From: a virus
Direction: 5' to 3' (one strand)
IMG/VR virus record: IMGVR_UViG_3300028272_000002
Coordinates: 1 to 34,527 of that record
Length of the DNA: 34,527 nt
Part shown: positions 2,946 through 34,037 of the stretch, piece after piece
Layout: each line of letters opens with the position of its first letter
Position numbering within the stretch: position 1 is the stretch's first letter
The notes under the pieces: generated by a model
Seen by the model: only the letters and a program-made list of their open reading frames with translations
Told to the model about the DNA's origin: nothing
Database searches by the model: none
Position numbers and translations under genes: made by a program

Positions 2946-3695
2946 ATGTTAAAAATGAAGCTAAAAATACTTTGCAGCAATAGTTTAGGCAATTGTTACA
3001 TCCTTGAAAATAATAGCGAGGCTTTGATCATTGAAGCTGGGATAAAACTGAAGGAAGTAAAGAAAGCCCTGAATTTCAATTTAAGAAAGGTTGCTGCCTG
3101 CATTGTTACCCATTCTCATCATGATCATGCAGGTTATATCGAACAATTGATGACAGCCGGCATAACTGTCCTGGCCCTGGAAGAAACTTTCCAGGCGAAG
3201 AATATTGACGAGGCAGCATCATTCAGAAAAAGGATACAACCAGGGCACGGATACAAGGCTGGGAATTTCAAAATCCTTGCCTTCACGGTTGCTCATGACG
3301 TGCCGTGCCTTGGTTTTGTCATCGAGCATTTAGATTCAGGAAAGATATTATTTCTGACCGATACGATGACTTGCGGTTATAGCTTTTCCGGGCTTAACCA
3401 TTTGATGATCGAAGCAAATTATTCAGATGATCAACTTACAAAGAATATTCAATCAGAAACAGTCCCCTTGTCATTAAGAGCCAGGTTGCTAGCTTCGCAC
3501 ATGGAATTTGAAACCACAAAACAGATCATTAAAAATCAAGATTTAAGCCAAGTGCGAAATATCGTACTGATCCATCTTTCAGACAGGAACTCGGATGAAA
3601 AACGGTTTGTATCAGAAATCAAGTCTATGACAGGGAAATCGGTACATGCTGCACAGAAAGGGATAGAGATAGAATTTAACAAGGAACCATTTTAA
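2946..3695 (+). CDS. MBL-fold metallo-hydrolase (putative nuclease)
   Basis: A 249-aa metallo-beta-lactamase-fold hydrolase. The metal ligands are visible: H56-x-H58-x-D60-H61 in the HSHHDH motif, H117 in FTVAHDVP, D139 in FLTDT, and later His residues in LLASHME (H185) and LIHLSD (H210). The N-terminus KLKILCSNSLGNCYIL resembles small MBL proteins of the YycJ type, many of which are predicted nucleases. Position directly after recT suggests it processes DNA ends for annealing, but that role is inference. A second Met at 2955 (MKLKIL) is an equally good start and aligns better with family N-termini. Confidence 0.85.
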   Translation: MLKMKLKILCSNSLGNCYILENNSEALIIEAGIKLKEVKKALNFNLRKVAACIVTHSHHDHAGYIEQLMTAGITVLALEETFQAKNIDEAASFRKRIQPGHGYKAGNFKILAFTVAHDVPCLGFVIEHLDSGKILFLTDTMTCGYSFSGLNHLMIEANYSDDQLTKNIQSETVPLSLRARLLASHMEFETTKQIIKNQDLSQVRNIVLIHLSDRNSDEKRFVSEIKSMTGKSVHAAQKGIEIEFNKEPF

Positions 3696-10175: not shown

Positions 10176-10370
10176 ATGGAAGAGTTAGTTGAGATTGTTT
10201 GTCTTGAGTGTGGGCATAAGTTTGAGGTTAAATCAAATGGTCATTCTCTGGCTATGTATGATCAGGATCGGTCTATACATTGTGCATTTGATGGTGAAAA
10301 ACTGAAATGCCCTGAATGTGGACAGGAACAATTAATATTCAAAGGTTATGAAAAAGCTAAAAAGATTTAA
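10176..10370 (+). CDS. zinc-ribbon small protein (64 aa)
   Basis: A 64-aa protein with CLEC (Cys9, Cys12) and CPEC (Cys45, Cys48), the two knuckles of a zinc ribbon, separated by 32 residues. It starts directly after the preceding TAA and overlaps the next gene by 23 bp. Such proteins often bind nucleic acid or mediate protein contacts; no specific role can be read. Confidence 0.55.
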   Translation: MEELVEIVCLECGHKFEVKSNGHSLAMYDQDRSIHCAFDGEKLKCPECGQEQLIFKGYEKAKKI

Positions 10371-11572: not shown

Positions 11573-11603
11573 TTGACAATCGTTCAAAAAAAAACTAATT
11601 TTG
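11573..11603 (+). promoter_or_regulatory. late-operon promoter before terS
   Basis: TTG (11573-11575, in TTGACA), 20-bp spacer, then TAATTTTG (11596-11603), a full TAnnTTTG match. Transcription should start near 11610, about 19 bp before terS, so the mRNA leader is very short. The last base of the -7 element is the first base of the terminator hairpin. Confidence 0.6.
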
Positions 11604-11628
11604 CTGCTCTGACAGGGCAGCTTTTTTT
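11603..11628 (+). terminator. intrinsic terminator between early and late regions
   Basis: GCTGCTCT pairs with AGGGCAGC (8 bp, one G-U) around a 3-nt loop at 11603-11621, followed by seven T (11622-11628). It would end transcription from the accessory region immediately before the terS ATG at 11629. A transcript begun at the overlapping promoter would lack the 5' arm and so escape termination. Confidence 0.75.
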
Positions 11629-13426: not shown

Positions 13427-14910
13427 AAATCTTGGGTTTCAATATTCAGCGTACACCGAAAGCGGTATTAACGCAAAAAGTAGGATCATTCGATCTTATT
13501 ACTGCAGCACCTAATCGAAGCAGTCAGGATATCAATGATTGGATTAATGCTGTAAAAAGTTCTGAGAATATTTATCTCCCCAGCAGAAAACAGCTTTATG
13601 AAATCTATTTTCAGACGGTATTGGATGATGATTACGTTACAACAACCGAAAAAAGAAAAGCAAATATCCTTAACCTGAATTTGGTCTTTAAGCGGGATGA
13701 TCAGATTGATGAAAAAGTAACGGCATGGATTAATACCATACCCTTCCGTCAATTTAAAAACGATCTGATGGATACTATCTTTTGGGGTCATAGCCTGTTT
13801 GAGTTCGATTACTCAAAGGATTTCTTCAATTATGTATTGATACCCCGTATAAATATAAACCCGGAAAGAAAGATCGTTATGAAAACACCATGGGATATGA
13901 CCGGGATACCATATCTTACGGATGAGTATAAAAACCTGCTTCTGGAAGTAATGGATTCCAATATTTTTGGATTACTAAGGGTGATCTCTATCTATGCGAT
14001 CTATAAACGCAATATGATGGGTGATTGGGCTAATTATTCGGAATTAGCGGGTAATAACTTCAGGATGGTTAAGTATACCGGGAGTGATACAAACATTAGG
14101 AGCAGGGTAGTTAGTGCTTTGGAGAATGCGGGTAGCGGTGGCGTTGTCAATCTCCCGGAAGGAGTAGAGGTAGATTTTATTAATCAGTCAAGTGCTTCCG
14201 CTAATGCCCTGTTTGAAGGATTCCATAAACGTATGTCTGACGCAATCATCCGACTTATTTTAGGCCAGACGATTACGACTACAGATACGCAGGCTGCTTA
14301 TGCAAGAGCTACTATAGCTAAAGAGGTTGAGGATGAAATAAACAGCAATGATCGATGCTTTATGCTTGACGTTCTTAATGAACAGTTCAGGGAAAAGATT
14401 GCTTTTTGGGGATTTGATACGGATGGGGATTTTGTCTTTGAAGAATCAGATAAGACCCCATTTCGGGAGAAGTTGGAGAACGATAAGATTCTTAATGAAA
14501 TCCTCAAAGACTTATGGCTCCCTGATGAGTATATTCTTGAACGTTATGCGGTTAATCCAAAGCCGGAAGAAGCTACGCCAACGCCAACGGTAGTAATCCC
14601 TTCGCCGGAAGGAATCATGCCATTACCGGAGGATGCTATTGAAATATCAAACCCTTATAATGAACACGCTGCCCGGCTGATACATCCGGGTAAGTTCGAT
14701 AAGTTCAGACGTACAAAGGGTGGAACCCTTCATGGTATAGTTGTTCCAAGTAGTATCAGTATCATTTGGGGGCATCTTAAAGGTAGAAAGGAATCAGATT
14801 GGGCGGCACAGTCTTTACGGTTCTCAAAAATTAAATGGTCGGGCGATAGGGCAAAAAAATGGCTAACAGATAATCAGATCAAATACATAACCTTTGAACC
14901 TGCGGTATAA
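13423..14910 (+). CDS. portal protein, DUF935/Mu gp29-like, with C-terminal extra domain
   Basis: A 495-aa portal, starting at ATG 13423 in the ATGA overlap with terL; an upstream in-frame ATG at 13366 lies inside terL and is unlikely. Residues about 60-365 resemble DUF935 portals: FWGHSLFEFDY, the segment ending AIIRLILGQTITTTDTQAAYA, and the stem-like region after it. A Pro-rich linker (about 379-398) leads to an extra domain of about 85 residues (HAARLIHPGKFDKFRRTKGG, QSLRFSKIKWSGDRAKKWL), a module I know as an appendage of many metagenomic phage proteins. The portal is the ring through which DNA passes. Confidence 0.85.
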   Translation: MKILGFNIQRTPKAVLTQKVGSFDLITAAPNRSSQDINDWINAVKSSENIYLPSRKQLYEIYFQTVLDDDYVTTTEKRKANILNLNLVFKRDDQIDEKVTAWINTIPFRQFKNDLMDTIFWGHSLFEFDYSKDFFNYVLIPRININPERKIVMKTPWDMTGIPYLTDEYKNLLLEVMDSNIFGLLRVISIYAIYKRNMMGDWANYSELAGNNFRMVKYTGSDTNIRSRVVSALENAGSGGVVNLPEGVEVDFINQSSASANALFEGFHKRMSDAIIRLILGQTITTTDTQAAYARATIAKEVEDEINSNDRCFMLDVLNEQFREKIAFWGFDTDGDFVFEESDKTPFREKLENDKILNEILKDLWLPDEYILERYAVNPKPEEATPTPTVVIPSPEGIMPLPEDAIEISNPYNEHAARLIHPGKFDKFRRTKGGTLHGIVVPSSISIIWGHLKGRKESDWAAQSLRFSKIKWSGDRAKKWLTDNQIKYITFEPAV

Positions 14911-23100: not shown

Positions 23101-24895
23101 ATTGGAATTAGCTGCCGGGGAACACGCTAAGGCTATAATGGAAATATATAACAAAGAAGATTTTACATCGGTTATAGCATCACAACTAACAGAAGTACAA
23201 ACAGTTTATACTACAGCTGTTTCAGCTATACGTGAAGAATTCGGTAAGACCGAAGCAGGATATGCTAAGGAGTTAGATGCTCTTGAAGAGTTTGCTAAAG
23301 GTACGGAAAACATATTTTCCGGGTTTAAGATCTCACAGCTTATTGAAGAAGATAGAATAAAGCAACAGGGAGAATTTGAAAAGATGAGGTCTGATGAAAA
23401 TAAGATATTCGATAACAGACTTAAAGAATATAGTCTGTTTAGCGTAAACATGGAAACGCTAACTGCGGATCAGCTTACGGCATTGGAAATACTCAATGAA
23501 GAGCATAATAAAAAACTTCTGGATATCTATGATAAGGAGTTAGAGGATAAGATCGTAAAAGCAGAGGAAGCCTATAAGACTGAAACCATTGCCCGTAATG
23601 CAATCTTTCAGGAGGAACTTCTTGCATTAGGAGATAATGAAGCTGCTAAGATAAAGCTAAAGGAAAAGTTTGCACTTGAAGAACTGAATAGGCAACGGGA
23701 GTATATCACGAATACCATATCCATGTTGCAGGAGCAGCTAACTCCTGCCTTAGCGTTAACGGAAGGGATAGTAGGTATTACCTTATCAGAAGAAGAAAAA
23801 GCAGCCCTGACGAAGCGTATTAATGAATTACGGGCTGAATTAGCAAAGCTTGGGGTTAGTATCACAGAACTTGATAAGGGAACGGGTAAGGATATTTTCG
23901 GTCAGACACAGGATGATTGGAATAACCTAAAGAAAAACATGGTAGGGATATCAGAAAGTGGGGATATCCTATTTGGTACTTTTGAGACCGTAAAAGAAAG
24001 TATTGATACCTTTATAGATGCTGAGGATATTACTGCAAAGATAGAAGCTATAGGTGCGGCCGCAACTTCTATTATGTCTGGATATGATGGTATCAGGACA
24101 CAGCTTGAGAATAATGCAATAGCAGAATCTGAACAAAGGGCAGCTCAGCAAACGCTTATTATTGAAAATGAATATGACAGGCAGAAAGCCTCTTTAGATT
24201 CACAGTTAGCCAAGAAGACTATAACGGAAGAAGTCTATAATCAAAAGGTTGAGGCTTTGGATAATAAGACAGCCTCCCGGAAGAAAAAACTTGAAGATGA
24301 TATTGATAAAAAGAAACAGGAAATTGAATTCAAACAGGCACGCAGAGATAAAATTAATGCAATTTTTTCTATTCTGATAAATACAGCGGTTGGTGTAGTT
24401 AAGGCATTTCCAAATATTATTTTGATGGCTTTATTAGCCGTAATAGGTGCTGCATCATTAGCAATGGTAGCTGCTACTCCATTGCCTAAACATGCTTTTG
24501 GAAAACGACCGGGAAAACAACAGGGAAAGGGTATGGTTATACCGGGGAATGATGCCTGGGATTCTGATAATTACTTAGCAAGGATTTCCTCTAAGGAAGT
24601 TGTTTTAAATGCTCGTAGTATGACAGATAGTGATGTATTAACCCTGACGGGTACTCCAAGGGAGATCGCATCACAAATCAATTCCTACAAGGGTTATGGT
24701 GTAAAATTCGCCTATGGTGGCACAATGGCAGTTAATTCGTCAAAACCTGGTTCTACAATAGATCGTGAATTGGTAAAGGAAATAGTAGAAGAAACCGTTG
24801 ATGGGATATTAGGAATACCTGTTTACGTTCTTGAAAGTAATATCACAAAAGCTCAAAGACTTGTTAAGGTTGTTAAAACAGCTGGTGATCTATGA
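20174..24895 (+). CDS. tail tape measure protein (TP901 family)
   Basis: A 1573-aa protein that fixes tail length and later helps DNA entry. Residues 1-115 form a Gln/Lys-rich coiled coil. Residues about 254-455 match the TP901-type core (YGLEIDELTKAFFSSVSAGL, VMNAYRLSIDEAAQVASSFF, TPNIRALIGLGVM). Hydrophobic segments follow at about 548-565, 633-655 and 1397-1437, with long coiled coils (about 700-1390) between the last two. The start shares one base with the previous stop (TAATG). The length implies a long, non-contractile tail; no sheath gene is seen. The stop overlaps the glycosyltransferase start. Confidence 0.92.
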   Translation: MEKQIYLRITLADVDNQTQKVVSLKEALRQLGIERSKLIGQQKTEENQIKKLTAENQKLLTAIDKDKTKTKEYSQNITENSQKITESRTKIKELGTQIEQLSIKQMQAGKAVTAASAQMRVLDKTYGTAAGSIARLRAETSLMIQKANQMSVTNAKSRVIRDQLTASIQKNQMQIRNFDRAVSGSRTLVGEYSMGIGQAFQKISMAISGVMMAYMAFDRIIKVGWNNFKKWEQGIVNVQTLLFGGMDVTLEGRMTQLMKTYGLEIDELTKAFFSSVSAGLSVEQSQEMITQAIILSKAGVTDLATATDGMTSVMNAYRLSIDEAAQVASSFFVAQKYGKMTVEDLAKVVGNIAPIANVAGASYQEVATMMAMMTKNGLNARMAATAIRAAMLSMIKPTATAKKAFDELGITWGATGVREQGMVTILHKIADAYDKNADVLVRLTPNIRALIGLGVMNKKAMEDFDVMLKDVNEDYGEGGFLMKAYAMQMDTAAEKAKVFKANIRLAGMELSHRLHPAQSLVKKGLFELSEWFLKNADAIFKFIHIIGIATGALLLHRLTMMIINSVKVASIAITNGLTAAQVMENSTIKANTVITKIAIALKKAYAWAATNLTSATKIATVAQKAWNTAMTSNPIGLIITGVAALISILTLLPKKISAVSKVKQEMNDIDLEVNKNTLVQIRQVEKLVNIIKDSKSSYLDVKSAKEQLSEIDKVRLSNINKETLANGEARKSLDLWIISIKEEARVKAINAKMDEIAAKRLDVEAGKGVDPKFFGRVWNSIKALGNANVATFYDAKTAINNTTDALAELNQEEELYLAQLNTSSTAVNDQVELALNWETRLQELQKARAELESNTVKGIKERMAAEIEEYDLEASNIETEVTDDQMRFEMLDELEETHLLKMEEMEEELRNASKGTTKALKDDAKSATDAYKTLTESIIESLESTGAKEIVKTEVEYTSKKEEAAGIDNVVLKQKALELAAGEHAKAIMEIYNKEDFTSVIASQLTEVQTVYTTAVSAIREEFGKTEAGYAKELDALEEFAKGTENIFSGFKISQLIEEDRIKQQGEFEKMRSDENKIFDNRLKEYSLFSVNMETLTADQLTALEILNEEHNKKLLDIYDKELEDKIVKAEEAYKTETIARNAIFQEELLALGDNEAAKIKLKEKFALEELNRQREYITNTISMLQEQLTPALALTEGIVGITLSEEEKAALTKRINELRAELAKLGVSITELDKGTGKDIFGQTQDDWNNLKKNMVGISESGDILFGTFETVKESIDTFIDAEDITAKIEAIGAAATSIMSGYDGIRTQLENNAIAESEQRAAQQTLIIENEYDRQKASLDSQLAKKTITEEVYNQKVEALDNKTASRKKKLEDDIDKKKQEIEFKQARRDKINAIFSILINTAVGVVKAFPNIILMALLAVIGAASLAMVAATPLPKHAFGKRPGKQQGKGMVIPGNDAWDSDNYLARISSKEVVLNARSMTDSDVLTLTGTPREIASQINSYKGYGVKFAYGGTMAVNSSKPGSTIDRELVKEIVEETVDGILGIPVYVLESNITKAQRLVKVVKTAGDL

Positions 24896-25521
24896 AATTC
24901 AGTATAGTTATAGCTGACCGGGGCGATAGACCTCAATTTCTTGAACATTGTATTTTTCAGATGGAACGGCAGACAGTACAACCATCAGAAATTTTGCTGG
25001 TTAATCATCTACCTTTAAAAGAAGGGTTTGACATTAACGAAAGGTTACTGTTAGGCGTTACATCATCCCGGTATGACCGTATATTTTTTATTGAGAACGA
25101 TGATTATTACCCGGATAATTATTTTGAGGTTATGCTTAGGTATAGTCGGTTTAACTTCATTGGTATTCGCCGGACAATTTATTACAACATTTTTAATAAC
25201 AGGTATTCAATCCTTAATCATTGGGGTGAACAGCGATCAAGTTTATTTTGTACCGCAATCATTAAGAACCCCTTAATCTATAAATTATTTTATGGTAATA
25301 ATTTCGTTGATCTTCGCCTTTGGGAATATGCACGTTATACTAATTCATACTATCTGTTAGATTTAGATCAGATATGCCCTATCGGTATAAAACATGGTAT
25401 TGGGTTGTGTGGTGGGGAAGGGCATAGAAGTCATTTATTGCTTTCCGATCAGGGGAAAACATGGCTTAGGGATCACGTCAGGCCGGAGAGTTTTGAGTTT
25501 TATAAAACGATCAATAAATAA
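24892..25521 (+). CDS. glycosyltransferase, GT-A type
   Basis: A 209-aa protein beginning KFSIVIADRGDRPQFLEHCI, the nucleotide-sugar binding start of GT-A folds, with IFFIENDDYYPDNYF (about 64-78) supplying the metal-binding Asp pair (D70, D71). The rest (GGEGHRSHLLLS near the end) is plausible for the acceptor half. It transfers a sugar, probably to a virion or host component. It starts in an ATGA overlap with the tape measure gene, so it is an integral part of the late tail operon. Confidence 0.75.
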   Translation: MKFSIVIADRGDRPQFLEHCIFQMERQTVQPSEILLVNHLPLKEGFDINERLLLGVTSSRYDRIFFIENDDYYPDNYFEVMLRYSRFNFIGIRRTIYYNIFNNRYSILNHWGEQRSSLFCTAIIKNPLIYKLFYGNNFVDLRLWEYARYTNSYYLLDLDQICPIGIKHGIGLCGGEGHRSHLLLSDQGKTWLRDHVRPESFEFYKTINK

Positions 25522-25570
25522 ATGTCCTATATGTTCATTTCAATTCCAGTATAGTGCGATTAAAATTAAG

Positions 25571-26101
25571 ATGGCACATAAAGCACAACAGGATTTTATC
25601 AGGGAAGTCAAACTACGCCTACCGAAATATTTTACCGGGGTAAATGTTTTAGACTGCGGATCATTGGATATCAATGGTAACAATCGGGAATTTTTTGATG
25701 ATAGCAGGTATATAGGATTAGATATCATACCGGGTAGGAATGTGGATATTGTTTGTCCGGCGCATAAATATCATGAATATGGGTTTGATGTTGTCATTTC
25801 AACGGAGATGCTTGAACATGATAAGTTCTGGAAAAAAAGCCTTGAAAATATTTATTTAATGGTTCGGGATAATGGGCTTATTATTCTAACTGCTGCAACT
25901 ACCGGGCGGGAACCGCATGGTATACCGGGGCATCATCCAAAGGATAGCCCGGCAACCCATAATTACTATTTGAATATTACAAAAGAAATGCTTGTATCTG
26001 TCTTTAGCCCAGGTATGTTCAACATATATCAATTATTTATAAACCATACTGATATATATTTCTATGGTATCAAAAACAATCTATGTCGTTGCATCTGGTA
26101 A
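25571..26101 (+). CDS. SAM-dependent methyltransferase (type 11 like)
   Basis: A 176-aa protein from ATG 25571 (MAHKAQQDFIREVK). Motif I is VLDCGSLDINGN (26-37), the post-I acidic residue is D51 (YIGLDI), and motif IV-like FDVVISTEMLEHDKFW lies at 72-87, all of a class I methyltransferase. The same frame stays open upstream with a CPIC motif, and a TTG near 25493 could give a longer form. Sits between a glycosyltransferase and an MptE-like protein; the acceptor is unknown. Confidence 0.7.
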   Translation: MAHKAQQDFIREVKLRLPKYFTGVNVLDCGSLDINGNNREFFDDSRYIGLDIIPGRNVDIVCPAHKYHEYGFDVVISTEMLEHDKFWKKSLENIYLMVRDNGLIILTAATTGREPHGIPGHHPKDSPATHNYYLNITKEMLVSVFSPGMFNIYQLFINHTDIYFYGIKNNLCRCIW

Positions 26102-26594
26102 TACACTAAGAGGTTTTGACTTTGAGAAACTTCGTGGGGGGGAGATCATAACTGTAAATGATAATTTTAGGTTTATACCTTTTGCTCAACACTTAGTTAT
26201 CTTAGACCTAAAGTTTTATAAACAGTATAAACGTGAATTACGAAGCTTTAAGGGTAAAATCTATAATGACCGGGGTATATTGGGTAGTATCCCTATCCCT
26301 ACGACATCTATTAATAATTCAGGTTATTCAGCTATTAAACTGGCCATGTCATTTCATCCGAGGATAATTCATCTATTAGGGTTTGATTTATGCCGTGAAA
26401 AATATGTCCATCATTTTGACGATCAGCCCGTACCTAATTTTACCAACTTCCAAAGAGTAGCTAATGCAATTAATGAGATCAATACCCGTATAAAAATCTA
26501 TAATTATAGTGATGTTTCAATCATCACTAAATTTCCTAAAATACCCTTAATAGATTTACCATTACCTTTTTGTACCAAAAATGGTACAAAATAA
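26064..26594 (+). CDS. MptE/DUF115 or sialyltransferase-like protein
   Basis: A 176-aa protein opening KTIYVVASGNTLRGFDFEKL, then ITVNDNFRFIPFAQHLVILD (about 29-48), and SGYSAIKLAMSF with IIHLLGFDL (about 85-110). This pattern is that of the Rossmann-like fold shared by DUF115/MptE-like proteins and some CMP-sugar glycosyltransferases. It overlaps the methyltransferase by 38 bp. Together the three genes look like a small glycan or surface-modification set. The C-terminus runs into the palindromic operator at 26569. Confidence 0.6.
   Translation: MVSKTIYVVASGNTLRGFDFEKLRGGEIITVNDNFRFIPFAQHLVILDLKFYKQYKRELRSFKGKIYNDRGILGSIPIPTTSINNSGYSAIKLAMSFHPRIIHLLGFDLCREKYVHHFDDQPVPNFTNFQRVANAINEINTRIKIYNYSDVSIITKFPKIPLIDLPLPFCTKNGTK
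26569..26590. promoter_or_regulatory. 9-4-9 palindromic operator, copy 1
   Basis: TTTGTACCA (26569-26577), AAAA, TGGTACAAA (26582-26590): a perfect 9-bp inverted repeat. It lies 5 bp upstream of the TTTG element of the next promoter. A near-identical palindrome is at 28727-28748 with the same spacing to its promoter. It overlaps the end of the upstream gene. Confidence 0.65.
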
Positions 26595-26595
26595 G

Positions 26596-26627
26596 TTTGA
26601 CTACCATTAATTTAGATTGTATTTTTG
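26596..26627 (+). promoter_or_regulatory. late promoter for tail tube and connector genes
   Basis: TTTG (26596-26599), 20-bp spacer, TATTTTTG (26620-26627): full consensus. Start of transcription is expected near 26634, 24 bp before the gene at 26658. Confidence 0.75.
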
Positions 26628-26657
26628 CTCATTGAATAACTTTTAATCTCTAATGTC

Positions 26658-27221
26658 ATGGCAATCGCGAATTATGTAAAAGTTTGTGAAAAGAATGTAC
26701 CCGGCGTTAACAGTTTATTTTATACCGAAGTAGGTAACATTGATACCGTTACCATTACTGACGGTGAAATTACTGCGGTTACGATGGGGACTGCTACTAA
26801 TTTCTTCCATGAGTTTGATGCTGACATTGATTCCATCGAGTATAGTTGGGAAGGCAAAGGATCAAAAAACTATTTCGGCAAGCAGACGCTTGAAGCCGGA
26901 TTCAGTAAACTCACCAAAGATCTTTTAACGGCAAAGAAATCTCTTGTAGATGCTATCAACTGCGGTATGATCCCTATCTGGATTGATGGTAATAGTCAGG
27001 CTTGGATGGGTTGGAATGATAGCGAAAAAGCCAAGCGCCCATGGAACAATATCGAAGATACCTTTAAGACCGGGAAAAAGCCATCGGATGAAGATGGTGG
27101 TATTTTCGTTATCACAATTTCGGGTGAAACGGGGTATGATGCCACACCTTTTAATGCGGCCCTAACGGCATCTATCATTGCAGAAGCTACGGCTGCATCT
27201 TTGTTTATTGATTTTAATTAA
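26658..27221 (+). CDS. major tail (tube) protein candidate
   Basis: A 187-aa protein starting MAIANYVKVCEKNVPGVNSL. It has alternating strands (YTEVGNIDTVTITDGEITAV; FHEFDADIDSIEYSWEG), a Gly-rich GGIFVITISGETG segment and an Ala-rich end, typical of tail tube proteins. A dedicated consensus promoter drives it, as expected for a highly expressed virion protein. Its position after the tape measure is unusual for a tube gene, so the call is moderate. Confidence 0.55.
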   Translation: MAIANYVKVCEKNVPGVNSLFYTEVGNIDTVTITDGEITAVTMGTATNFFHEFDADIDSIEYSWEGKGSKNYFGKQTLEAGFSKLTKDLLTAKKSLVDAINCGMIPIWIDGNSQAWMGWNDSEKAKRPWNNIEDTFKTGKKPSDEDGGIFVITISGETGYDATPFNAALTASIIAEATAASLFIDFN

Positions 27222-27222
27222 G

Positions 27223-27453
27223 ATGTACCGGGTTGTAAAAGGACAGGAAAAAGGCGTAGTATTCCTGATGAAGAAACCACATGGAATGCCAAATTCAATA
27301 ATATTGGCGTTAGCTACGCAGGCCGAGCTTGAATATCTTTATTTAAAAGGACATCCCTTTGTATATAAGGATATTGAACCACAGGAGAAAATTAAGGAAG
27401 ATCCTGAAAGTGAGGTCAAGAAGAAAGAAAAACCTATAATCCGTAAACTTTAA
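27223..27453 (+). CDS. small virion-associated protein candidate (76 aa)
   Basis: ATG 27223, one base after the tube-gene stop, opens 76 codons: MYRVVKGQEKGVVFLMKKPH, then a helix (LALATQAELEYLYLKGHPF) and a Lys/Glu-rich tail. The helix-with-YLYLKGH pattern is common in small head-tail interface or assembly proteins of Bacteroidetes phages, as far as I recall. Function not established. Confidence 0.45.
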   Translation: MYRVVKGQEKGVVFLMKKPHGMPNSIILALATQAELEYLYLKGHPFVYKDIEPQEKIKEDPESEVKKKEKPIIRKL

Positions 27454-27456
27454 TTG

Positions 27457-28200
27457 ATGTTTATCACTAAGGAACAGGTTATAGCTCTTGCAATAAAACG
27501 TACTTTCAGCGAAGGGCTGTTAAATAATTCTGATCTGGTAGCTGCAGAACAGAAATATATCCGACCTATTCTTACCCCTGATCTTTATGATGCCGTATTA
27601 TCGGCTGCCCCAACTGAATATTTAGTGGATACGCTATCTGCCGCCGGGATGCTTTTTGTTTATACTACGGGCATGAAAGCTAACGGAAAAGCAATTACTT
27701 CAATCTCTATTGCTGACCCGGCTATCTTTACTATCTCCACACATGGGTTTCTTTCGGGACAAGATATTCATATTACAGGTACGACTATAGATAAATGGGA
27801 TGCCCTGATTAGCGATAAGTTTTTTATCTGTAATAAATTATCCGCAGATACTTTTTCACTCCTTCAAACGCTAACTACTGAATATATCAAACCCGCTCTT
27901 GCTTATTATATTGTCTATGATATTTTTAATGAGATGTTTGTGGAGTTTTCAGAGAGGGGTGTTTTCAATCTAGAAGCTAAAAATGCACAGATTATTTCAA
28001 ATCAGACCCGTACAGAAGCCCGGAATGATATTTATAATAAGGCACAGACATTGAGTCGTATTCTTAAAACCTATATTGAATTACAGGTTACAAATGAGGT
28101 AGCTATCTATAAGGATTATTATGAATCCGGGGAGATCGATTCTGTTAATTCCGATCTTGTAACTACAGGCGGGATCACTAAACGGGCTAACTACTTTTAA
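27457..28200 (+). CDS. head-tail connector-like protein with inserted beta domain
   Basis: A 247-aa protein (ATG 27457; TTG 27454 alternative). The flanking parts (MFITKEQVIALAIKRTFSEG, PILTPDLYDAVL; and after about 145 LAYYIVYDIFNEMFVEFSERG) look like the helical head-tail connector (gp6 type). Between them, about residues 80-138, lies a beta module (ITSISIADPAIFTISTHGFL, ITGTTIDKWDALISDKFFIC, DTFSLL) resembling the FCCH/Ig-like pattern often found in virion proteins. The 3' end overlaps a convergent minus-strand ORF by 14 bp. Confidence 0.55.
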   Translation: MFITKEQVIALAIKRTFSEGLLNNSDLVAAEQKYIRPILTPDLYDAVLSAAPTEYLVDTLSAAGMLFVYTTGMKANGKAITSISIADPAIFTISTHGFLSGQDIHITGTTIDKWDALISDKFFICNKLSADTFSLLQTLTTEYIKPALAYYIVYDIFNEMFVEFSERGVFNLEAKNAQIISNQTRTEARNDIYNKAQTLSRILKTYIELQVTNEVAIYKDYYESGEIDSVNSDLVTTGGITKRANYF

Positions 28201-28345
28201 GCCTTACGTCATATTCCCTTTGTATCCATTCAGTTATAGCTATTGCAGCAGATAATGGCGCACTTGTTTTACATTGCCCGATCAAAACAGCAGCGACAAT
28301 GTTAGCGATCTGTCTTTGGAAAATAAGCCAATCGTTGTCATTCAT
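28187..28345 (-). CDS. small minus-strand protein (52 aa)
   Basis: Minus-strand ORF from ATG 28345 to TAG at 28187: MNDNDWLIFQRQIANIVAAV..., a helical protein with a moderately hydrophobic Ala/Ile-rich middle. Its start overlaps the stop of the minus-strand gene at 28338-28700 by 8 bp, so it is the second gene of that operon. Its end overlaps the convergent connector gene. Function unknown. Confidence 0.5.
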   Translation of the reverse strand: MNDNDWLIFQRQIANIVAAVLIGQCKTSAPLSAAIAITEWIQREYDVRLKSS

Positions 28346-28700
28346 AGTAAATCCAATTTGTATTTATAATTTCCAGCCATGGCAGCCATTCCGTTCTCCC
28401 CGTAGGTTCAAAGGTATATCTAAAACTGTTGGTATCCCAAATAATCTGAGCCTCATAAATAGTATCAGTACCTATACTGAAATGTACTATATCACCGGGT
28501 AGATAATTGTTTTCGCCTAATTTTATAATATGGTATCCATATTCCTTTAAAATATCAGTAAGTTTTTCATTATGACATTCAGGGATAGGGCGATATTGTT
28601 TTTCATTTAGTCTTAGTGTCCGGAGTGGTATCCCGGACATTTTTTCAAGAAGTAAGAGTTTGATCAGGGGATGGGCTTTGAGGAAACGTAATATTTCCAT
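28338..28700 (-). CDS. minus-strand helix-turn-helix regulator candidate (120 aa)
   Basis: From ATG 28700 (MEILRFLKAHPLIKLLLLEK). The N-terminal half has the order of a small helix-turn-helix domain (KLLLLEKMSGIPLRTLRLNE, then CHNEKLTDILKEYGY). The second half is a strand-rich module (GDIVHFSIGTDTIYEAQIIWD, WLPWLEIINTNWIYY). The frame is open further upstream to 28841, but that part crosses the divergent promoter region and is unlikely to be coding. It is one of only two believable minus-strand genes and borders the palindrome at 28727. It likely regulates the nearby late promoters; this is inference. Confidence 0.6.
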   Translation of the reverse strand: MEILRFLKAHPLIKLLLLEKMSGIPLRTLRLNEKQYRPIPECHNEKLTDILKEYGYHIIKLGENNYLPGDIVHFSIGTDTIYEAQIIWDTNSFRYTFEPTGRTEWLPWLEIINTNWIYYE

Positions 28701-28714
28701 GATCTTCTTTTTTA

Positions 28715-28748
28715 CAAAGGTAATACTTTGTTCCAAATTTGGTACAAA
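28715..28748 (-). promoter_or_regulatory. possible promoter of the minus-strand operon
   Basis: Read on the minus strand: TTTG (28748-28745), 22-bp spacer (slightly long), TACCTTTG (28722-28715), a full -7 match. Predicted start near 28708, 8 bp before the regulator ATG. The palindromic operator fills the -33 and spacer region, so a bound protein should block it. Confidence 0.4.
28727..28748. promoter_or_regulatory. 9-4-9 palindromic operator, copy 2
   Basis: TTTGTTCCA (28727-28735), AATT, TGGTACAAA (28740-28748): the same dyad as at 26569-26590 with one mismatch in the left arm. It lies between divergent promoters, 5 bp from the -33 element of the + promoter and overlapping the - promoter. 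Confidence 0.65.
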
Positions 28749-28754
28749 ATAAAA

Positions 28755-28785
28755 TTGACTTATAATAATAAATCTTATAATTTTG
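28755..28785 (+). promoter_or_regulatory. late promoter for protease and capsid genes
   Basis: TTG (28755-28757, in ATTGAC), 20-bp spacer, TAATTTTG (28778-28785). Expected start near 28792, only about 9 bp before the ATG at 28801. Architecture matches the promoter at 26596. Confidence 0.65.
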
Positions 28786-28800
28786 TGCAAAAGATTTTCA

Positions 28801-29940
28801 ATGGCGTTATATACTGATATTGGTAATACACGTGAGATCATGCTTTATGGATCAATCGGTGAAACCGTTGATGGCAATGATATCGGTGAGATCATAAGAC
28901 AGGCTCCAGAGGCAAACATTTCAGAAATACATATTCGTATAAATTCCAATGGCGGGGATATTATCAATGGTCTTTCTGTTATAACTTCTCTTATAGCGGT
29001 AACGATTCCAGTAACTACATTTATTGATGGAGTAGCGGCAAGCATGGCGGGTGTCATTTATCTGACCGGGAAAAAGCGGGTGATGAATGACTTTGCTTTA
29101 CTAATGCTACATGAGCCGAGCTTTTGGGGTATGACCGCAGAGGAAGTTGAGGATGAGAAAACTCGTGAGGCTTTATTACGTTTCCGGGATATGCTTATTA
29201 AGATAATCTCCAACAGTACAAAAATGGAAGAGGATGAGGTCTTAAAAGTATTACAACAGGAAACATGGTATAACGCCGAAGAAGCCCTAAAACTGGGTTT
29301 GGTAGATGAAATCTATGTAACTAATTTTCAGGATTTATTTAATCAGCCTGCATCGAAAATCCTAACCAAGATAGCAGCCAAATTTAAAGAACAAACCATT
29401 ATGGAAGAATTAAAAAACATATTGACATTATTGGGTATGCCCGAAGGTTCAACGATTGGCGATATTGAAACGTCAGTTCAAAAATTGATTGATGAGGTTG
29501 CGAATCAGAAAGGACAGATTGATACCCTAACCACTACCAACGAAAGCCTTACCGCAATGGCTACGCTGAAACCGGAAGCCGAAGAAGCTCTTAATGATGA
29601 GATCAAGCGTTTATCCGATGAGAAAAATCAGCTAAGCTTTTCCGCAGGAGAAGCCCTTATTGCGGAAGCCAAGCTTTCCGGTAAGCTAACCATCGCTGAT
29701 ACCCTTACCTTGAAAGGTAAACCATTCTCAGAGATTACTACGGTGATTGCCGGAAAAGTTATCCCAAAGAAAATTTCAGCCATATTGCAGTCTCCCGAAG
29801 ATGTTGCGTCTTTGGCGAAGGAATGGGATACCCTACATCATGGGAAAAACGGTGAACTCGGGCAGTTAAAAAAATCAAACCCTGAACGCTTCAAAGCGTT
29901 ATTCAAAGCTAAATACGGTCACGACCCTAATACTATCTAA
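28801..29940 (+). CDS. ClpP-type prohead protease with scaffold-like C-terminus
   Basis: A 379-aa protein from ATG 28801. The first 190 residues are a ClpP/S49-type serine protease: IHIRINSNGGDIINGL (oxyanion region, about 44-58), GVAASMAGV with catalytic Ser81, and LMLHEP with His104. From about residue 200 the sequence becomes coiled-coil, Glu/Lys-rich (VQKLIDEVANQKGQIDTLTT), like a scaffolding domain. In-frame ATG 29401 (Met201) exactly at the junction could give a free scaffold. It matures the prohead. The TTG at 28783 lies in the promoter and is not used. Confidence 0.85.
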   Translation: MALYTDIGNTREIMLYGSIGETVDGNDIGEIIRQAPEANISEIHIRINSNGGDIINGLSVITSLIAVTIPVTTFIDGVAASMAGVIYLTGKKRVMNDFALLMLHEPSFWGMTAEEVEDEKTREALLRFRDMLIKIISNSTKMEEDEVLKVLQQETWYNAEEALKLGLVDEIYVTNFQDLFNQPASKILTKIAAKFKEQTIMEELKNILTLLGMPEGSTIGDIETSVQKLIDEVANQKGQIDTLTTTNESLTAMATLKPEAEEALNDEIKRLSDEKNQLSFSAGEALIAEAKLSGKLTIADTLTLKGKPFSEITTVIAGKVIPKKISAILQSPEDVASLAKEWDTLHHGKNGELGQLKKSNPERFKALFKAKYGHDPNTI

Positions 29941-29941
29941 C

Positions 29942-30358
29942 ATGAGCCAAGAGAAATTTTATGCTGAACTCAAGCAGCCGGATACCGGGTATGCTCTTAC
30001 CATTAAAGATGTAGGGTCTTTACCGGCAGACTGTACCGCTATGATCCCTACCTGTTATTCACGGTCAACGGTTACCGATTTAGCTACTATCGCTCTGACG
30101 ATAACGCAGCCGATCGAAATTATCCCTATTGATACTATGGCACAAGCCTGTCTTATCAATCTGACGATCAGTTCCGAACTGGCGGCTGGCGCAAAAATCT
30201 ACCTTAAACTTCCGTCTGATGGAACAGGGAGGACGGTAACGCTTGGAACGGGAACCTGTACTTCTGTGATAACGGGAGGAAACTCAAAAACGAAATGGGC
30301 TTTGCTTGTCTATGACGGCACAATTTATAATTTAGTATCTGTTTATCAAATTAATTAA
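29942..30358 (+). CDS. small beta protein, decoration candidate, paralogue A1
   Basis: A 138-aa beta-rich protein (SQEKFYAELKQPDTGYALTI; LTITQPIEIIPI; INLTISSELAAGAKIYLKL; LLVYDGTIYNLVSVYQ). It is clearly homologous to the next gene over its full length, and more distantly to the two after it through LTISxExxAGAxIxL and the final YDGT/YNGT strand. It lies between protease and major capsid protein, a usual place for capsid decoration proteins. No signal peptide. Confidence 0.5.
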   Translation: MSQEKFYAELKQPDTGYALTIKDVGSLPADCTAMIPTCYSRSTVTDLATIALTITQPIEIIPIDTMAQACLINLTISSELAAGAKIYLKLPSDGTGRTVTLGTGTCTSVITGGNSKTKWALLVYDGTIYNLVSVYQIN

Positions 30359-30777
30359 TGGCACAGGAAAAGATATATGCGGTATTACATCAGCCCGGAA
30401 CAGGGTATAAGCTAACTATTAAAGACGTTAGCAGTCTCCCTTCTGACTTAACTGCTATGATCCCGACATGTTATGCACGATCGGCTGTTACTTATGCCGA
30501 TCCTTTAGCATTAACGATAACGCAGCCTATTGAGATCATTCAGGTTGCAGCTCTTACGGGTGATGTTACTATTAATTTAACCGTATCAAGTGATTTGATA
30601 GCAGGGGCTGAATTATTTTTACGATTTATTGCGGATGGGGTAACGGCAACCATCACATTCGGAACGGGTATTGGAACGGCTACCGCTTTTACATTAGCCA
30701 CAACGAAAATTGCTTGGGTTTATCTTGTCTATGACGGTACAGCCTATCAGGTTATCTCAAAATATCAAACAAATTAA
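30358..30777 (+). CDS. small beta protein, decoration candidate, paralogue A2
   Basis: A 139-aa protein sharing one base with the previous stop (TAATG). It aligns end to end with paralogue A1 (AQEKIYAVLHQP; LTAMIPTCYARS; LTITQPIEII; INLTVSSDLIAGAELFLRF; YLVYDGTAYQVISKYQ), differing mostly in loops around residues 45-75 and 95-115. A recent tandem duplication with divergent loops is the simplest reading. Confidence 0.5.
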   Translation: MAQEKIYAVLHQPGTGYKLTIKDVSSLPSDLTAMIPTCYARSAVTYADPLALTITQPIEIIQVAALTGDVTINLTVSSDLIAGAELFLRFIADGVTATITFGTGIGTATAFTLATTKIAWVYLVYDGTAYQVISKYQTN

Positions 30778-30778
30778 A

Positions 30779-31129
30779 ATGAGCGTAACTAATTATATCA
30801 ATTACCCTTTCGGTTTGATACAGACGGCTAATCTGACAGCATCTGGATCACAGGCGATTTCTATCAATGCAGCAGTAACGCATATTGACGGCGTTACAGT
30901 ATCTTCAACAGGGGCAAGGACATTAGTATTGACAATAAGTAGCGAAGTGAAAGCGGGTGCTGTTATTCATTTAGCTGCTAAGGCAGCTTCCGGTGCAGGT
31001 AATATGGTTTTCTCAACCGGATTTACTGCGCCTACACACTTACAGGTAAATACTAAAACGCATACGCAGAGTTTTTTCTATAACGGAACGACTTTTTATC
31101 CTATGGCAGAAATACTTCAAATCGACTAA
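30779..31129 (+). CDS. small beta protein, decoration candidate, paralogue B1
   Basis: A 116-aa protein from ATG 30779, one base after the previous stop; the longer upstream frame overlaps A2 and is not used. Sequence: SVTNYINYPFGLIQTANLTA, LVLTISSEVKAGAVIHLAA, STGFTAP, QSFFYNGTTFYPMAE. Strongly similar to the next gene and distantly to A1/A2. Confidence 0.5.
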   Translation: MSVTNYINYPFGLIQTANLTASGSQAISINAAVTHIDGVTVSSTGARTLVLTISSEVKAGAVIHLAAKAASGAGNMVFSTGFTAPTHLQVNTKTHTQSFFYNGTTFYPMAEILQID

Positions 31130-31132
31130 ATC

Positions 31133-31471
31133 ATGACTTATATTTCATATCCTTTTGGTGACATGGCATCGGCCGAACTAACAGCATCAGGGGCGCAGGC
31201 AATAACGATAAGTGAGCAAGTAACCTATCTTGACGGAGTAACCGTTGAAGCAACAAATGACAGAACGCTTAACCTAACTATTTCCGATGAGGTAAAAGCA
31301 GGTGCTATGATTTATCTGTCTTCAAAGACAAACGGTACTGAGGGTACTATTTTCGGTACTGGATTTACTGCCCCAACGATTACCGGGGAAGCAGGTAAAA
31401 CATTCACTCAGGCATTTTTTTATAACGGTACAGTTTTTCTACCAGTTGGTAATTATGTAAAAGTTGATTAA
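31133..31471 (+). CDS. small beta protein, decoration candidate, paralogue B2
   Basis: A 112-aa protein 3 bp after B1, sharing ISYPFGDMASAELTASGAQA, LNLTISDEVKAGAMIYLSS, GTGFTAP and QAFFYNGTVFLPVG with it. Fourth member of the tandem set; the major capsid gene starts 18 bp downstream. Confidence 0.5.
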   Translation: MTYISYPFGDMASAELTASGAQAITISEQVTYLDGVTVEATNDRTLNLTISDEVKAGAMIYLSSKTNGTEGTIFGTGFTAPTITGEAGKTFTQAFFYNGTVFLPVGNYVKVD

Positions 31472-31489
31472 CCATAAAATAATTTAACA

Positions 31490-32395
31490 ATGGCAATTAA
31501 TAAAGAAATTTGGCAGAACTTCATCGCTGAAAACCTTTTCGAGGACAACCCGCATCTGGATCTTGCAGTTGTAGCTGATGAAAACGTAGAAGGGAAAACG
31601 GTTCATATCCCTTCCGCAGGAGCGGCTGCAACAGTTACTCGTAACAGATCAAGTTTTCCGGCAGTAGTCGTTGATCGTACCGATAACGATGCGACCTACG
31701 ATATTGATGAATTTTCCATTGATCCGGTTCGGGTTGCAAATGCTGAATTGCATGAGCTTTCCTTCGATAAGATGGCATCATTGATGAATGACGTGATGAT
31801 GTCATTACGTGAGGCCGTCGGAGACTGGATGTTTTACAATTGGAGAGTGACATCTGCTACCTACATGACCCGAACCACCGGAACTACAGTAGCGGCTCAT
31901 GCTCCATCAGCGACCGGAACGAGGAAGCGTATTCTTGCCGCAGATATCCAAACGGCTGCCCGTATCCTGAACCACTACAAAGTTCCAATGGCTGATCGTT
32001 ATGTAGCACTTGATGCTTTCATGTACGATCAGCTTCTGAGTGATCTCCGATTCGGGGAATTCCGGGATTCCGTCAAAGAAATGGATTTAGCCAGGGGTAT
32101 CATCGGCCAGCTTTTTGGTTTCAATATCATCATGCGCCCGACAGTCCTGTATTATGACAATACGGGAACTCCCGTACCAAGAAGTCCTGACGATGCCGGG
32201 GCAACAACGGATTATGCGGCAGCTATTTGCTGGCAGAAAAACATGGTGGAACGTGCCTTTGGCGCTATTGATGTCTTTGAGGACATTGATAATCCAATGT
32301 ATTACGGTTCAATTATTTCCGGCCTTGTCAGATCCGGAGGACGGAAAAGAAGATATTCAGGTCTTGGTGTTGTCGCTATCATACAAACTACGTAA
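31490..32395 (+). CDS. major capsid protein
   Basis: A 301-aa HK97-fold-type capsid protein. N-terminus MAINKEIWQNFIAENLFEDN; then EGKTVHIPSAGAAATVTRNR, DEFSIDPVRVANAELHELSF (E-loop region), a helical spine DIQTAARILNHYKVPMADRY (about 150-170), VALDAFMYDQLL, GIIGQLFGFNIIMRPTVLYY, and a C-terminal GLGVVAII strand. Codon use is more even and GC-rich than in the accessory genes, as expected for high expression. Position after protease/scaffold and decoration-like genes, and a strong terminator behind it, support the call. Confidence 0.85.
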   Translation: MAINKEIWQNFIAENLFEDNPHLDLAVVADENVEGKTVHIPSAGAAATVTRNRSSFPAVVVDRTDNDATYDIDEFSIDPVRVANAELHELSFDKMASLMNDVMMSLREAVGDWMFYNWRVTSATYMTRTTGTTVAAHAPSATGTRKRILAADIQTAARILNHYKVPMADRYVALDAFMYDQLLSDLRFGEFRDSVKEMDLARGIIGQLFGFNIIMRPTVLYYDNTGTPVPRSPDDAGATTDYAAAICWQKNMVERAFGAIDVFEDIDNPMYYGSIISGLVRSGGRKRRYSGLGVVAIIQTT

Positions 32396-32424
32396 GTAGC
32401 GTTCTGGATTGTGGTTGTGTAACT

Positions 32425-32465
32425 GGCGGTGGTTGGCAGGAATCTGTTGGCTACCGCCTTTTTTT
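32425..32465 (+). terminator. strong intrinsic terminator after the major capsid gene
   Basis: Arms 32425-32439 and 32444-32458 pair over 15 bp (GGCGGT with ACCGCC at the base, then several G-U pairs) around a GAAT loop, followed by seven T (32459-32465). It ends 13 bp before the next ATG, so the fibre genes need read-through or another promoter, which I could not identify. Confidence 0.75.
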
Positions 32466-32478
32466 AAAAACTATCGCT

Positions 32479-32871
32479 ATGAAAACATTATTTTTAATTC
32501 TTTTGATGTCTATCGGATTGATAGCTTTTTCTCAAACGATTATCCTGGAATCCGGCTATACTATAACTACCGTCGATAATTATTGGAAAATTGACATACC
32601 GGCGTATGAAGATATGCTATATGACGCAGGAATACAGATTCGTTGGTTAGGTCTAACCGGGGTACTTGACGGTACGGTTTCTATTCAACACGGTCTTGAA
32701 GGAGATACTTTACGATGCGATTATGGTATGAATCAGGACTTAAATACGGCAAACGGATATAGCTATTTTGAATTATGGGAGGTTACTGCGACAGATCTAT
32801 ATGTTAATTTTGATCGCAATAATATTACGGGAGGACTTTTACGAATCAATTATATGCTACGAAAAAAATAA
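32479..32871 (+). CDS. Sec-exported beta protein near fibre genes (130 aa)
   Basis: A 130-aa protein with signal peptide MKTLFLILLMSIGLIAFSQ (cleavage about residue 18). The mature part is a beta sandwich-like protein (TIILESGYTITTVDNYWKID, LDGTVSIQHGLEGDTLRCDY, DLYVNFDRNNITGG). It precedes fibre-like genes that also carry signal peptides. It may be an exported surface protein or, if the signal is not processed, a tail appendage. Function unknown. Confidence 0.55.
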   Translation: MKTLFLILLMSIGLIAFSQTIILESGYTITTVDNYWKIDIPAYEDMLYDAGIQIRWLGLTGVLDGTVSIQHGLEGDTLRCDYGMNQDLNTANGYSYFELWEVTATDLYVNFDRNNITGGLLRINYMLRKK

Positions 32872-32876
32872 TCACC

Positions 32877-34037
32877 ATGAAAAAAATTATCAGTTTTTTA
32901 GCTATTATGCTAATAGGGTTAATGGCTTTGGCTCAAACTACCCATAGGGTTAGTTATGGTGAATCCGATCCCGTCTGGATATCGGATAGTACGGATTATA
33001 TTCATAGGAATGACACAACGACAAAGGTAGCATCCCGAAAATGGGTGACAGATAAAGCTTATGTAACAGCTACCTATACAGGCGATTTGACAATTACAGG
33101 TGATATTACAGGCGATACAGCTAAATTTACCCATTATGGAGGGAAATCTCCCTTTACCGTTGGGGATGCTGGGTTTAATTTAGAATATAATAATGACTGG
33201 TTTACTTACGGAGTACCTGGATTAATGATTTCATCTAAAAATGATTTTGGATATAATATGAATGGTGTGATGGATTTTTCGATAACGGGATTAGATACAT
33301 TATTAATTTTTGCATGGATAAGAAATGATTTTTCAGAAGGGTATAATATTGCCCTTGACAGCAATCGAATTGAAATTGGTTCAAATCCCCAGATGGCTGG
33401 AGTTGCTAATATCAATATCGGAGATGCTACAAACTATGATGATATTGTGAATATATACGGTACGTATGGTGGTACGGTCATTATTGATCCAAATTTAGAA
33501 AACGTGGCGATGGGTGCTTGGAGTCTATATTCTAACACGGAAGGGGAAAGTAACGTGGCGATGGGTTCTGGGAGTCTTAAATATAATACGGAAGGGGTAG
33601 GTAACGTGGCGGTGGGTTATCAGAATCTATACTTTAACACGACAGGATATCATAACACAGCGATGGGTACTGAAAGTCTTTTTTCTAACACGGAAGGGGA
33701 AAGTAACGTGGCGATGGGTTATAGATCAGGATATTCAAACACTGAGGGCGGTAATAATATATTTATCGGAGATTCAGCTGGATATAATGCCACTGGCAGC
33801 TATAAGCTATATATAGATGAAAGTCCCACGGCTGCACCTTTGATTTATGGTGATTTCGAAAATAATCTGTTGACAATTAACGGTGATATGACCGTTACGG
33901 GAAAGGTAGCTGCATCGGATTCGATTTGTATTGCAAGATTTCGCTGGGCATCGAAAGGAACAATTCCGAATGATACGCTTGTATTGATAAGGGGCGTAAA
34001 TGATACAATTGAATGGCATCCGCCAAGAGCACCATGA
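32877..34037 (+). CDS. fibre-like protein with 17-aa repeats and signal peptide
   Basis: A 386-aa protein. Residues 1-20 (MKKIISFLAIMLIGLMALAQ) are a clear signal peptide. About 70-85 hold TGDLTITGDITGD, a fibre-type beta stretch. Residues about 209-310 are six 17-aa repeats (NVAMGxxSLxxNTEGxx), the trimeric left-handed beta-roll type seen in YadA-like heads and phage tail fibres. The C-terminus repeats TINGDMTVTGKVAASDSI. It likely trimerises and binds host surface. A signal peptide on such a protein is odd for a virion part. It overlaps the next gene (ATGA). Confidence 0.65.
   Translation: MKKIISFLAIMLIGLMALAQTTHRVSYGESDPVWISDSTDYIHRNDTTTKVASRKWVTDKAYVTATYTGDLTITGDITGDTAKFTHYGGKSPFTVGDAGFNLEYNNDWFTYGVPGLMISSKNDFGYNMNGVMDFSITGLDTLLIFAWIRNDFSEGYNIALDSNRIEIGSNPQMAGVANINIGDATNYDDIVNIYGTYGGTVIIDPNLENVAMGAWSLYSNTEGESNVAMGSGSLKYNTEGVGNVAVGYQNLYFNTTGYHNTAMGTESLFSNTEGESNVAMGYRSGYSNTEGGNNIFIGDSAGYNATGSYKLYIDESPTAAPLIYGDFENNLLTINGDMTVTGKVAASDSICIARFRWASKGTIPNDTLVLIRGVNDTIEWHPPRAP
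33501..33806 (+). repeat. 51-bp tandem repeats in the fibre-like gene
   Basis: AACGTGGCGATGGGT-type units recur with exact 51-bp period at 33501, 33552, 33603, 33654, 33705 and 33756 (last one diverged). A 37-bp identical stretch, 33531-33567 and 33684-33720, lies three periods (153 bp) apart, indicating recent duplication or exchange between units. Confidence 0.85.

Follow-up and report, generated by a model that had tools for sequence, protein, structure and literature searches.

Within a virus record of IMG/VR (IMGVR_UViG_3300028272_000002), two promoters for late structural genes carry the same palindromic sequence, and one of the two copies lies beside a small gene that reads backward among the structural genes. 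In this text, the window means the whole stretch of DNA that was analysed (34,527 nucleotides, 34.5 kb), the palindromes are called operators O1 and O2, the product of the backward gene is labelled P0001, and a distant relative, another IMG/VR contig, is labelled G001. The host is likely a member of the Bacteroidetes, because the best annotated relatives of the capsid protein belong to Porphyromonas, Elizabethkingia and Flavobacterium phages. The boxes of the primary sigma factor of this phylum, sigma-ABfr, are TTTG at -33 and TAnnTTTG at -7 (PMC7366714). All four late promoters discussed below, two in the window and two in G001, have these boxes with an N20 spacer, except that the -33 box of the window protease promoter is ATTG.

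O1 (TTTGTACCA-AAAA-TGGTACAAA; positions 26569 to 26590) is a perfect palindrome. It falls among the final codons of the open reading frame (ORF) ahead of the tube operon (26064-26594), and 5 bp separate it from the downstream -33 box of the tube promoter (TTTG-N20-TATTTTTG; plus strand, 26596 to 26627). O2 (TTTGTTCCA-AATT-TGGTACAAA; 28727 to 28748) has one mismatch and is located between divergent promoters, of which the plus-strand one (ATTG-N20-TAATTTTG; 28754 to 28785) serves the protease-capsid operon. Here, too, 5 bp separate the 22-bp palindrome from the -33 box. No third copy was found within 3 mismatches in the whole 34.5 kb, and two copies never appeared in 100 dinucleotide-preserving shuffles (mean 0.02). 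Operator and promoter together (59 nt, 75% identical) make up the largest direct repeat of the 9-kb late region, from 24000 to 33000 in the window. A sequence-only reading of the window had reported the palindrome at 26569, a copy with one change at 28727, the exact 5-bp gap at both promoters, and a minus-strand gene with a second small gene behind it, and all of these were confirmed.

The minus-strand gene (28338 to 28700) encodes P0001, a putative regulator of 120 amino acids, and is followed by the second small ORF of the cassette (minus strand, 28187 to 28345; 52 amino acids), which has no family match and is dissimilar to the G001 ORFs at that place. A candidate -7 box for the regulator gene, TACCTTTG (minus strand, 28715 to 28722), is located 15 nt from the axis of O2. 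O2 thus sits inside the putative promoter of the regulator, and this overlap supports the link between the operator and the regulator's own gene that the sequence-only reading had suggested. The terS promoter (11573), the third of this type in the window, has no palindrome; therefore, a factor bound to the operator does not control all late genes. The earlier idea of a local switch for the tube and capsid genes is borne out in part, in that one operator stands at exactly two late promoters, those of the tube and of the protease, decoration and capsid genes, while the terS promoter falls outside its reach.

The arrangement is conserved in G001 (IMG/VR contig 3300047202_000066, locus L009; 49 kb), whose capsid protein is 58% identical to that of the window. 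A scan with the capsid alignment gave 80 loci, and the gene order from the ORF at 26064-26594 through the tube, connector, minus-strand, protease and capsid genes was common only to L009. The minus-strand gene in the same slot of G001 encodes a P0001 homologue with 44% identity. The tube and protease promoters of G001, each with a dyad, form the largest direct repeat of the region (64 nt, 81%), and the whole contig has only these two operator sites. The distance from operator to operator is 2158 bp in the window and 2541 bp in G001. In 4/4 promoters of the two phages, exactly 16 nt separate the dyad axis from the -33 box downstream of it, with a spacer of 20 nt between the -33 and -7 boxes in each. 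A reverse-reading TAnnTTTG stands 15 nt from the axis at both O2 sites, just upstream of the regulator gene, and none was found within 60 bp of the O1 sites in either phage. Because the background rates of TAnnTTTG are as low as 5.5e-4 and 8.7e-4 per position, equal 15-nt offsets in two phages are unlikely by chance.

The letters of the operators were compared in register. The arms are TTTGTACCA/TGGTACAAA at O1 and TTTGTTCCA/TGGTACAAA at O2 in the window, and TTAGTACAT/GTGTACATG at O1 and TATGTTCAC/GTGTACATG at O2 in G001. The right arm is thus constant within each phage and differs between the phages around an invariant GTACA, and a TGTTC variant of the left half is common to both O2 sites. 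Judged from these letters, the change between phages is as would be expected if a regulator, here 44% identical, had diverged together with its sites. Co-occurrence and co-variation of palindrome and regulator in relatives, which had been proposed as a check, were therefore observed: both are present together in G001, in the same register and with changed letters. In 42 other records related by the capsid protein, searches for the regulator and for the operator-promoter unit gave nothing, so that records without the one also lack the other. The pattern used for these records works, because it recovers the G001 unit at the protease promoter; the G001 unit at the tube promoter, in which the left half is AGTAC, escapes it. 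With 0 of the 42 records carrying the regulator or the operator, the regulator family is rare.

P0001 itself gave no convincing match in Pfam, PHROGs or NCBIfam, either whole or by halves, and thus the description of this protein as helix-turn-helix (HTH)-like received no backing from any family match. A sequence comparison with the PDB also gave no match. PADLOC returned one short match to an ATPase model (27 residues, E 4e-4), which the G001 homologue does not have. AlphaFold on P0001 alone reached a predicted local distance difference test (pLDDT) value of 44, and the use of two homologues raised it to 65, with helices at residues 3-9, 15-22, 26-30 and 41-53 (pLDDT about 60-79), followed by strands in a beta-rich C-terminal half. 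The fold prediction, which had also been proposed, therefore supplied four N-terminal helices, at an overall pLDDT of 65 and with weak best matches. An HTH domain of four to five helices marks the lambda-repressor-like (XRE) regulators, to whose families P0001 gave no match. In VIA-align, residues 1-57 were superimposed onto Aca11 and residues 5-58 onto the SaPI2 Stl repressor at a low Z of 3.2, and residues 62-119 onto Tudor and chromo domains with low scores (Z up to 3.9). Foldseek gave no match under E 0.001 with the two-sequence model. These low structural scores agree weakly with an HTH domain followed by a small beta barrel, and fall short of proof.

From the position of the sites, we give about an even chance to the reading that P0001 is a dimeric regulator that represses itself and acts from upstream on the tube and protease/capsid promoters, more likely as an activator than as a repressor. 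Among the proteins that the two phages have in common, only two others are DNA-binding candidates by family, a DnaA-C-domain protein and the small terminase. A P0001 dimer would recognise TGTAC-N8-GTACA. On O2, it would sit over the stretch from -33 to -7 of its own promoter and thereby turn its own gene off, and from just upstream of the -33 box it would also contact RNA polymerase at the divergent protease-capsid promoter. On O1, the same contact with polymerase would be made for the tube operon. The region just upstream of the -33 box is where many activators touch polymerase. The dyad would be placed at about -51 to -55 relative to the transcription start. Polymerase contact fits well with a site that keeps a constant phase upstream of -33, and repression with a site inside the regulator promoter. 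Because O2 lies over the regulator's own promoter and just upstream of the protease -33 box, and O1 lies at the tube promoter, we favour a self-limiting activator. O1 has no backward gene beside it, and therefore its conservation must concern the tube promoter. Overall, P0001 would set the output of the operons that encode the most abundant virion proteins, namely the tube, protease, decoration-like and capsid proteins, in a self-limiting way, and would most likely raise it.

Several observations weigh against this reading. The -33 and -7 boxes are already near consensus at both late promoters, which therefore may not need an activator. The looser core TGTAC-N8-GTACA at 1 mismatch is expected by chance 0.45 times per genome of this size; by this count it is not rare by itself, and the strength of the case lies in the position of the sites and in their longer arms. 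Within each phage the repeat does not stop at the operator but takes in the promoter as well (in G001, 64 nt at 81%), and the constant spacing may therefore partly reflect duplication or conversion of the promoter, not selection for a contact. The bases beside the operators are also repeated within each phage, so that duplication or gene conversion contributes to the identity of the arms. Only one relative was found with the regulator in this gene order, the fold model of P0001 is weak and comes with no HTH family match, and the putative promoter of P0001 has a 22-nt spacer in the window and no clear -33 box in G001.

The near-consensus core elements, with which the promoters should be active alone, would also suit a reading in which P0001 binds both operators as a repressor or damper, holding back the tube and capsid operons until late in infection and repressing itself. 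Small phage HTH autorepressors are common, and repression could proceed either by exclusion of the polymerase alpha contacts or by looping of the operators, which their similar distances of 2.2-2.5 kb would permit. We place this reading second and regard it as unlikely, because the operator is located upstream of the -33 box at 4/4 late promoters, not over the core, and steric repression needs no constant phase; moreover, with no operator at the terS promoter the late programme as a whole would not be delayed. It is distinctly unlikely, in our estimation, that P0001 is a bystander and the operators are bound by another factor, either a host regulator or a phage protein acting like Ogr on TGT-N12-ACA. 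A candidate is the zinc-ribbon protein at window positions 10176-10370, a possible regulator of 63-64 amino acids with two CxxC pairs that is common to both phages (40% identical in G001), and the core of the operators equals the late-promoter consensus of phage P2, TGT-N12-ACA (PMC3931495), fully in 3/4 sites. However, the flanking letters agree within and differ between the phages, which argues for a phage-specific binder, and O2 stands at a constant offset in P0001's own promoter. The zinc-ribbon protein also lacks the CX2CX22CX4C spacing and gave no Ogr match among the families listed. The Bacteroidetes LexA motifs GGA-N5-TCC and CTAA-N5-TTAG (PMC8565304) are absent from the sites, and control by SOS/LexA was rejected on this ground for TTTGTACCA-N4-TGGTACAAA and TATGTTCAC-N4-GTGTACATG.

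The minus-strand pair could also be a moron or an aca-like cassette, consisting of an autorepressor and a variable small partner, in which O2 would serve autorepression only and O1 would be a by-product of promoter duplication. Its location on the opposite strand with its own promoter, the small ORFs that follow the regulator and are dissimilar between the two phages, and the weak match of the P0001 N-terminus to Aca11 are in line with this, and the inverted repeats from which Aca proteins repress stand inside the core promoter (PMC9410906), as O2 does in the predicted regulator promoter. Nevertheless, no minus-strand gene or -7 box accompanies O1, which is still a perfect palindrome in the window and keeps the 16-nt offset in both phages. 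Furthermore, the regulator comes first here, whereas it comes after the acr gene in acr-aca operons, and no anti-CRISPR evidence was obtained, as PADLOC gave only the 27-residue match to the ATPase model. We therefore consider such a cassette highly unlikely. Hardly credible at all is the notion that the palindromes are RNA hairpins or terminators that end the upstream operon and that the repeat is merely a duplicated promoter region. The position of O1 at the 3' end of the upstream gene and the good folding of its RNA (-10.9 kcal/mol, z -3.7) would fit, but no T-tract follows O1, no terminator-like site was called there, O2 is not at the end of any plus-strand gene, and the plus-strand O2 RNA is little better than shuffles in the two phages (z -1.3 and -1.2). 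The terminator or RNA hairpin was rejected for the missing T-tract and the shuffle-like O2 RNA.

The favoured reading, a self-limiting activator, was compared with known systems. With phage P2 Ogr and P4 Delta, too, a common dyad stands ahead of the -35 region at several late promoters, and the TGT-N12-ACA consensus fits O1 and O2 of the window and O2 of G001 exactly, while O1 of G001 has AGT. Unlike P0001, Ogr is a zinc-finger protein (CX2CX22CX4C) serving all late operons; P0001 and its G001 homologue have one Cys each, neither matched Ogr_Delta in Pfam, and the terS promoter has no site. Membership in the Ogr family was rejected, although P0001 may work like Ogr. The gene for phage Mu C lies in the middle operon. 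Similar to what is proposed for P0001, Mu C is one phage-encoded dimer with sites adjoining the -35 region of several late promoters (PMC4461284); in contrast, it acts on all Mu late promoters and on mom, and no sequence match to P0001 was found. For the Mor/C domain, neither the two homologues nor their separate N-terminal domains gave a Pfam match up to E 10, a search in which the HMMER filters may hide weak ones. In phi29 p4 and lambda CI, one protein activates one promoter and represses another (PMC4461284), but those switches are early/late or concern lysogeny, whereas the P0001 gene lies inside the structural region and would target the tube and capsid operons. Aca proteins are small HTH autorepressors with an inverted repeat inside their own promoter (PMC9410906, PMC8434428), an arrangement that P0001 would share, as the O2 axis is located 15 nt upstream of the minus-strand -7 box of the predicted regulator promoter in both phages. 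They differ in that no acr gene is known here, P0001 being first in its cassette and the partner ORFs having no match, in that a second operator serves a distant structural operon, and in that the C-terminal half of Aca2 is mainly helical and that of P0001 is predicted to be beta-rich. Non-canonical LexA proteins of the Bacteroidetes (S24 repressors) combine a CI-like N-terminal domain with palindromic sites in the likely host phylum (PMC8565304), but have other motifs, and P0001 is too short for the peptidase domain. Because P0001 has neither the defining zinc motif of Ogr nor the gene order of acr-aca operons, it was assigned to none of these systems.

Further relatives were searched for in several collections. 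Among annotated phages and plasmids, no direct relative of P0001 was found. IMG/VR was scanned with P0001, with the tube and capsid proteins one at a time, with the alignments of the regulator and the connector, and with the C-terminal half; the G001 contig was the only match, where there was any. Genomes of GTDB gave no match to the connector alignment, and none had the palindrome with the promoter, under a pattern that fixed 6 nt from palindrome to TTG, as fits the window sites, and demanded full arms. The palindrome scan of IMG/VR returned a single unrelated dispersed repeat, in the phage contig L003 (GGGGACGGTTACTTTTGTwCCAGCACTGGwACAAAAGyGGCTGTCCCC at 241-290, 1496-1540 and 3061-3115), one copy of which includes the 22-bp operator pattern, apparently by chance. 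In other capsid relatives, the terminase genes are mostly on the opposite strand ahead of the protease. Two Winoviridae Flavobacterium phages, pippi8-1 and FPSV-S1 (L006 17881-18587; L008 17847-18559), carry a minus-strand cassette in the same slot before the ClpP-like protease, which encodes an HTH-like protein of about 60 amino acids (unannotated in FPSV-S1) and a protein of about 167 amino acids, with a conserved TATAAAGACAAAwTAAAGAC between the divergent genes. This direct-repeat element was ruled out as a shared late operator, since it is present in a single copy.

In the window, Pfam and PHROGs identified RecT, the DnaA-C-domain protein, the small terminase, a Mu-type portal, a tape measure, a ClpP-like head maturation protease and a major capsid protein. 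The tube promoter is followed by the gene for a putative tail tube protein (plus strand, 26658 to 27221; 187 amino acids; 47% identical in G001), which has no family match and is named from its position and by the earlier reader, and a head-tail connector-like protein (DUF6712; plus strand, 27457 to 28200) is encoded last ahead of the minus-strand cassette. On the other side, the protease gene, possibly with a scaffold part (28801 to 29940), is followed by genes for four related small proteins (29942 to 31471; 138, 139, 139 and 112 amino acids), decoration-like by position, by the major capsid gene (31490 to 32395) and by an intrinsic-terminator-like hairpin with a T-tract (32425 to 32458), the probable end of the protease-capsid operon, all on the plus strand. 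G001 has three tandem small genes between protease and capsid, and two of their products are 77% and 76% identical to those of the window, far above the capsid identity. Between the tape measure and tube genes (24892-26594) are glycosyltransferase-like, methyltransferase-like (by eye) and sialyltransferase-like (PHROG 4603) ORFs. The terS promoter is directly followed by a terminator-like hairpin with T7 and then the start codon (window 11573-11627; G001, reverse complement, 14413-14470), with stem sequences that differ between the two phages. The late terS RNA would start inside the hairpin stem, and therefore the hairpin may be an early-region terminator escaped by the late transcript, or a 5' leader element.

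Little has been described of how Bacteroidetes phages control their late genes, and no description of a late-gene activator in these phages was found in the openly licensed literature. The case comprises one protein and two operators, and the terS promoter, which has no operator, can serve as an internal control. Tentatively, and with more doubt than confidence, we propose that P0001 may represent a new family of small regulators, with an HTH-like N-terminus and a Tudor/SH3-like beta domain, which is encoded inside the structural genes, limits itself, and switches on only the highest-copy virion operons through contact, from a dyad at a fixed upstream position, with the primary-sigma polymerase of the Bacteroidetes. 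If this is true, it would constitute a class of late activators distinct from Ogr, Mu C, p4 and Q. If P0001 is activating, the unit would also be a natural part for regulated expression in the Bacteroidetes, a phylum with unusual promoter boxes for its primary sigma factor.

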